Shown here piece by piece: positions 11,928-12,345 of a DNA stretch of 34,883 bases. The DNA comes from a virus. The stretch's first letter is position 1. Every line of letters begins with the position of its first letter. The notes under the pieces are model-generated. The model saw nothing but the letters and a program-made list of their open reading frames with translations, ran no database searches and had not been told where the DNA came from. Both the position numbers and the translations under genes were made by a program. Where the stretch lies: positions 1-34,883 of the IMG/VR virus record IMGVR_UViG_3300042691_010298. The stretch is one strand, 5' to 3'.

Positions 11928-12345
11928 GTTCCAGTGATTCCTTAATATCACAGACACACTACCTTTCTCGAGGTAGTTACGGCTTTCCAGAGATGTAGCT
12001 TTAGCGCATCAATCCTAAGCCCAGAAGTCGGGTGGTAGCTGTCACTCACATAGACAGCGATATGTCCCCGATAGTGTCGAAACTGGAATAAGTATATAAA
12101 GACCTTTATGGGTAGTATCTGATGAGAGATAGAGATTATCTCAGGACACAGGGATACTATGAGGGTGTACCACTACGGTGGCAACGTACAGCATAAAGCA
12201 TAAAACTTATTCTAATGTAAGAGAAATTCAGCCCTCACCTAAGGGGACTCTTGACTTCTCTCAATAGTCATCTACCAGCAACATAAGCTCGCTCACTACT
12301 CACATACCACTACAACAGCTACTTTATTGAGTTCGCTCGCAATAA
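11928..12345 (+). ncRNA. Candidate large structured RNA A (~420 nt)
   Basis: There is no convincing reading frame here, but helices are dense: 11928-11935/12082-12089 (GTTCCAGT/ACTGGAAT, one G.U on the plus strand), hairpin 11958-11964/11971-11977, hairpin 12038-12043/12053-12058, 12089-12093/12205-12209, 12104-12110/12192-12198 (CTTTATG/CATAAAG), 12112-12119/12153-12160 (G.U at the base), hairpin 12126-12131/12137-12142, 12166-12170/12186-12190 enclosing CAC-UACG-GUG, 12219-12223/12248-12252, and 12324-12329/12340-12345 around a GAG-UUCG-CUC core. The UACG and UUCG loops and the G.U pairs only make sense on the plus strand. The terminator at 11771 would suit the minus strand, so the strand is not certain. 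Its base composition is richer in GC than the AT-rich flanks. No known RNA family was recognised; very large phage RNAs (GOLLD, ROOL) are the natural comparison. Confidence 0.5.

Follow-up and report, generated by a model that had tools for sequence, protein, structure and literature searches.

Genomic setting of the island

The 34,883-base virus record analyzed here, called the window throughout, raises the question of whether an island of unusual base composition between two of its gene blocks encodes a structured RNA and, if so, on which strand and with what role. The record was recognized as a tailed phage by its terminase, portal, GroES-like, and endolysin genes. The large terminase is full-length (678 aa), and it shares about 28-30% identity with the terminases of phages of Cellulophaga, Flavobacterium, and Maribacter; therefore, a Bacteroidota host is likely. 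The island lies inside a 1.2-1.3-kb gap between a leftward structural block and a rightward early block, with the following genes on its two sides:

11282-11680, minus strand: final gene of the leftward structural block
12998-13501, plus strand: first gene of the rightward early block

The GC content of the island is 0.42-0.45 compared to 0.27-0.32 in the flanks, which agrees with the contrast to AT-rich flanks described in a first-pass annotation of this DNA. A coding function was rejected because stops interrupt all six frames. Defense-system and Pfam scans of the neighboring proteins found no partner. A PADLOC match on the primase-helicase was traced to its primase domain.

A terminase search retrieved 10 related IMG/VR contigs that also hold the island, and its position with respect to the structural genes is the same in all 10. 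Together with the window, these contigs provide eight distinct sequences (the window, L002, L004, L007, L008, L009, L011, and L012). Identity is 73-84% in the core of the island, and the flanks diverge.

Evidence for a conserved fold

RNAalifold, run on the eight sequences, predicted 78 pairs, 37 of which were changed on both sides. The structure named below has 79 pairs, including those of hairpin P12, in two domains and 14 helices, and 96.7% of its cells pair. Compensatory double changes were found at 40 of the 79 pairs, compared to 19.7 in shuffles, and 91 cells hold such a change. In 500 shuffles, the observed value was not reached on any of five measures. When the partner was slid by 1-3 columns, pairing dropped to 32-39% and only 3-8 double-change pairs were left. 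The consensus energy of the alignment had a z of -13.8 against column-shuffled alignments. The rows are related, so the cell counts exceed the number of changes that arose independently, and part of the structure came from the same alignment; even so, an effect this large leaves little room for doubt about the predicted structure.

The island is, thus, almost certainly a real structured RNA, as the first-pass annotation had proposed, and the comparison with related phages that it recommended was the decisive test. The shuffled-sequence folding control that it also named would have decided little by itself: the single sequence folded only modestly better than shuffles, with a z of -2.1 on the plus strand (3 of 100 shuffles were as good) and -1.5 on the minus strand.

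Architecture of the large RNA

The conserved core spans about 11934-12250, and the predicted elements of the RNA are as follows:

11928-12260, plus strand: structured non-coding RNA gene, predicted at about 320-330 nt (conserved in 10 contigs, covariation, stops in all frames)
11934-11951, plus strand: 5' hairpin P0, GTGAT at 11934-11938 with ATCAC at 11947-11951 (read from the flanks)
11955-12078, plus strand: domain I, a four-way junction (RNAalifold, pair counts, model R2)
11956-11959/12074-12077, plus strand: P1, which closes domain I
11960-11964/11971-11975, plus strand: hairpin P2 of domain I
11981-11986/12016-12021 and 11992-11999/12004-12010, plus strand: P3-P4 of domain I
12027-12032/12067-12072 and 12038-12043/12053-12058, plus strand: P5-P6 of domain I
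12084-12214, plus strand: domain II, made of P7, an internal loop, P8, and a three-way junction (RNAalifold, pair counts, model R1)
12084-12093/12205-12214, plus strand: P7 of domain II, followed by a conserved internal loop before P8
12104-12110/12192-12198, plus strand: P8 of domain II, CTTTATG/CATAAAG
12112-12120/12152-12160 and 12121-12127/12137-12142, plus strand: P9-P10 of the three-way junction
12166-12173/12178-12190, plus strand: P11 of the three-way junction, with a UACG loop
12215-12250, plus strand: conserved 3' segment with hairpin P12 and an invariant AAGGGGA
12221-12223/12234-12236, plus strand: small hairpin P12, with pairs that are A-U in four and G-C in four sequences, and C-G in seven and A-U in one
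12241-12247, plus strand: invariant AAGGGGA

P0 stands outside the counted 79-pair structure. It recurs as a hairpin of other sequence in L011, L012, L009, and L004, and L002 has the sequence of the window. The unpaired loops of the large RNA include invariant ones. Both helices singled out in the first-pass annotation are present and conserved with compensatory changes: CTTTATG/CATAAAG is P8, and GTAGTATC/GATACTAT (12112-12119/12153-12160) is part of P9. Its two UNCG loops fared differently. The UACG at 12174-12177 forms the loop of P11b within the conserved structure and is kept in four of the eight sequences, but the UUCG hairpin at about 12326-12345 is outside the core and is not conserved. 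The core of the proposed extent of about 420 nt stands, but on the 3' side that extent runs about 100 nt past the conserved core.

Long-range pseudoknots, such as UCCCC with GGGGA (alignment columns 144-148 and 329-333), had no compensatory support, clash with P5, and were rejected. Antisense 11-mers of the large RNA occur in the rest of the genome at about chance level.

Strand, promoter, and ends

The alignment folds almost equally well on both strands, and the first-pass annotation had left the direction open. The non-Watson-Crick cells give an answer: read as the plus strand, 42 cells (in 12 pairs) are G-U, compared to 6 A-C cells, which would be the wobbles of a minus-strand RNA. Because of this asymmetry, the large RNA very probably lies on the plus strand. 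Boxes upstream of the island agree with this direction. The sigma-A -7 box of a flavobacterium has been mapped as TAnnTTTG (PMC9723704), and six of the eight sequences have this motif on the plus strand, 12-21 nt ahead of the aligned region, against a background density of 0.4-0.9 per kb. L004 and L008 also have a TTG at the normal spacing (N17-23) to this box. The window and L002 have no consensus plus-strand -7 box upstream of the large RNA and, therefore, its promoter in these two is putative. Sigma-70 consensus promoters occurred at chance level.

We infer transcription of the large RNA and its exact ends, the 5' end being set from the -7 box and the recurring 5' hairpin. No intrinsic terminator was found at the 3' end. 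The last invariant motif, AAGGGGA, is followed by this element:

12248-12345, plus strand: variable C-rich, G-poor tail, a candidate Rho-type termination region (base composition)

The 80 nt just after 12247 have a C content of 0.34 and a G content of 0.07, which places them in the top 0.1% of such segments in the record. The tail is similarly extreme in L004 and L008 and weak (top 5%) in L009 and L007. This composition fits Rho-type termination of the large RNA, without proving it.

Distribution and known RNA families

Covariance searches were conducted with two domain models, R1 for domain II and R2 for domain I, and recovered a single copy from each of 11 records. The large RNA is kept in all 11 contigs of the lineage that cover the locus. 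The same models found no copy in four isolate phages or in five records from distant cousins, whose terminases are about 42% identical, and nhmmer found no homologue in the cousins at 42% terminase identity or in the four isolate phages. BLAST of phage and plasmid collections, as well as DNA pattern scans of IMG/VR and bacterial genomes, gave no homologue outside the 10 contigs; additional pattern-scan matches were rejected as chance. Bacterial genomes searched with a terminase profile yielded no relative. At the gathering threshold, none of the 4227 models of Rfam 15 matched the window or six relatives. Even at a permissive E of 5-10, the island did not match GOLLD, ROOL, OLE, or any intron or ribozyme family. 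ARAGORN found no tRNA or tmRNA genes. Since the collections searched held no further homologue and Rfam gave no match, the large RNA is, as far as these sources go, a lineage-specific undescribed family. Structured RNAs of viral contigs may already have been catalogued in the literature, and absolute novelty is not claimed.

What the large RNA may do

The explanation that we favor, and consider reasonably probable from the sequence, is an independent plus-strand RNA gene of about 320 nt, probably trans-acting and back to back with the predicted small RNA described in the next section. Its 5' hairpin, four-way-junction domain, three-way-junction domain, and conserved 3' tail would work in trans during infection as a folded RNA or an RNA-protein particle. 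Independent action in trans is argued by elimination and from the layout of the locus, and we hold it to be fairly likely.

A cis-acting leader, riboswitch-like, would instead be the 5' part of a long transcript that controls the plus-strand early genes. The island is upstream of the plus-strand block, lacks a clear terminator, and has conserved loops and a conserved 3' tail, as a leader might. The nearest plus-strand gene, however, starts at 12998, more than 700 nt away and across a poorly conserved gap, and has its own -7 box, TATCTTTG, near 12953. Because of this distance and this box, a leader is unlikely.

Another possible explanation is a replication origin or packaging site, in which folded single-strand DNA would be the functional molecule. 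This would suit a position between divergent gene blocks, and the island is flanked by repeats of a short element, one of which is:

11899-11908, plus strand: TTAGCTGTTA element between the divergent promoters (repeat count compared to shuffles)

Further copies are at 11712-11721 (plus), 12375-12384 (plus), and 14116-14125 (minus). With at most one mismatch there are 13 sites compared to 5.0 expected, a number reached by 0 of 100 shuffles. The repeats lie in intergenic regions near the large RNA and the promoters; the element is also present in relatives and is possibly a phage regulator site. The wobble asymmetry of 42 to 6 and the architecture of multi-helix junctions, in contrast, fit an RNA, and promoter boxes flank the island in relatives. 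We regard an origin or packaging site as rather improbable.

An RNA of an undescribed or highly divergent type that splices or cleaves itself, or the remnant of such an RNA, would account for the compact multi-junction fold and the invariant unpaired loops, but it is very unlikely given the lack of any Rfam intron or ribozyme match at the permissive threshold, the fixed position, and the absence of a recognizable interrupted gene.

A predicted small RNA on the minus strand

The minus-strand terminator reported just left of the island at 11793-11765 exists, and a promoter box precedes it:

11765-11824, minus strand: predicted 60-nt small RNA with an intrinsic terminator, hairpin 11771-11793 and U6 (promoter-to-terminator layout)
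11829-11836, minus strand: Bacteroidota-type -7 box TATCTTTG of the predicted small RNA (eight of eight sequences)

A minus-strand TAnnTTTG left of the large RNA, with a terminator 46-61 nt past the presumed start, was found in all eight sequences, and a TTG stands at the usual -33 spacing in five of the eight, the window not among them. Both the promoter and the terminator were assigned by sequence consensus only. Since the terminator has its own minus-strand box before it in every sequence, the simplest reading is that it closes a separate predicted small RNA. The first-pass annotation had instead noted that it would suit a minus-strand RNA of about 580 nt; such an RNA has hardly any probability left, even with a genuine minus-strand terminator and an alignment that folds nearly as well on that strand, since the G-U pairs would turn into A-C mismatches and the box between island and terminator points to a short transcript of 46-61 nt.

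Three relatives have an extra minus-strand box between the small-RNA terminator and the tail gene. In L009, L012, L008, L011, and L007, UUUCUACU is preserved in the loop of the small-RNA terminator (as CUUGUUUCUACUUG or a close variant) although the stem sequence changes; this loop sequence is absent in the window, L002, and L004.

Possible pairing of the two RNAs

The plus strand of the small-RNA gene copies segments of the large RNA and, therefore, the predicted small RNA would be antisense to them. Perfect antisense matches were found in L002 (GGCTTTCACGAGAT, 14 nt), L011 (AATGGTTTAAGAA, 13 nt), and L004 (GGCTTTCACGAG, 12 nt), and none of 153-221 other 62-mers from the same three contigs matched as well. 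Exact-match complementarity was not significant in the other five of the eight sequences (the window, L012, L009, L008, and L007). Duplex energy gave p values of 0.02 for the window, 0.04 for L011, 0.08-0.09 for L002 and L004, and 0.14-0.47 for the others. GGCTT-N-GAGAY occurs at the small RNA in L002, L012, L009, and L007 and is nearly absent elsewhere; it makes up the looser matches of L012, L009, and L007. In the window, two 8-nt blocks, GAGATTAT and CTCAGGAC, adjoin each other at P10 of the large RNA, and in the small-RNA gene they are separated by 8 nt. Overall, the complementarity hints at pairing, varies from sequence to sequence, and is weak in the window.

Because exact matching gives no significance in five of the eight sequences and one leader type is common to L002 and L004, we give base pairing between the predicted small RNA and the large RNA an even chance at best. 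The small RNA (46-61 nt, with its own promoter and terminator) would be antisense to helix strands in several relatives and may open or cap the large RNA. More tentatively, the locus could be a protein-free two-RNA module, in which the small RNA invades the RNA of about 320 nt by a targeting segment re-acquired from different helices of the large RNA in different phages.

That the two RNAs do not pair, and that their shared short sequences arose by chance or gene conversion or are a repeated site bound by a protein, is about an even bet. Only three of the eight exact matches are significant, two of those three sequences share one leader type, and the complementary stretch targets different helices in different phages. 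Two observations speak against this: the large RNAs of L002 and L004, which have one leader type, also have in common an otherwise absent CACG in the internal loop, a variant shared with their small RNAs, and L008 (ACAGC) and L007 (GAGAC) each carry the same substitution in both RNAs.

Other conserved elements near the locus

A second non-coding region is found at 13500-14290, and a block within it (14116-14195, ACTATACTCRCCCTGATGTTAAACAAAGGG) is conserved in six relatives. About 80-100 nt past the block, L002, L008, L009, L011, and L012 have a tRNA-like 3' end, composed of the T-arm GGTTCGATTCC, an acceptor-like closing stem, and one more short hairpin, with no ARAGORN call. A short alignment had a fold z of -4.9 and little covariation. 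Additionally, a C-rich/G-rich element, GGGTTCCCCC..GGGGGAAnTCGATT..CTACTGAGTACCC, is located about 200-350 nt right of the island in L002, L011, L012, L004, and L008. It is conserved in part among relatives and degenerate in the window (about 12425-12500).

Comparison with known phage and plasmid RNAs

The packaging RNA of phi29 is a small structured phage RNA made from its own promoter. The large RNA differs from it in size and structure and has no Rfam match, and this phage has a terminase of 678 aa. In plasmid ColE1, the small RNA I pairs with the folded, longer RNA II of the same locus and is a fully overlapping antisense RNA. The locus described here likewise places a small RNA together with a folded longer RNA. 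In contrast to ColE1, the two units are divergent, complementarity is at most 12-14 nt, and a role in replication is no part of the case. The c4 RNA of P1 and P7 and other phage antisense RNAs are short phage RNAs that base-pair with another phage RNA (PMC12197685). The predicted small RNA resembles them as a short phage RNA aimed at a phage RNA; unlike them, it would act on an RNA that is non-coding and structured in its own right, and it is encoded beside this predicted target rather than opposite to it.

GOLLD and ROOL, which occur in phages and prophages, are large structured RNAs of ornate shape that are defined by covariation and have unknown function (PMC12286853). The large RNA is like them an ornate phage RNA defined by covariation. 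GOLLD, which often exceeds 800 nt, and ROOL are larger and often near tRNA islands, whereas the large RNA is about 320 nt long and matches no Rfam model, and ARAGORN found no tRNA genes here. Large structured phage RNAs of this kind are still without a function, and the large RNA adds a new compact example. Because it is compact, single-copy, and lineage-wide, deletion and suppressor work would be straightforward with a host in hand. Should the small RNA really pair with it, compensatory mutations would provide a direct handle on the job of the large RNA.
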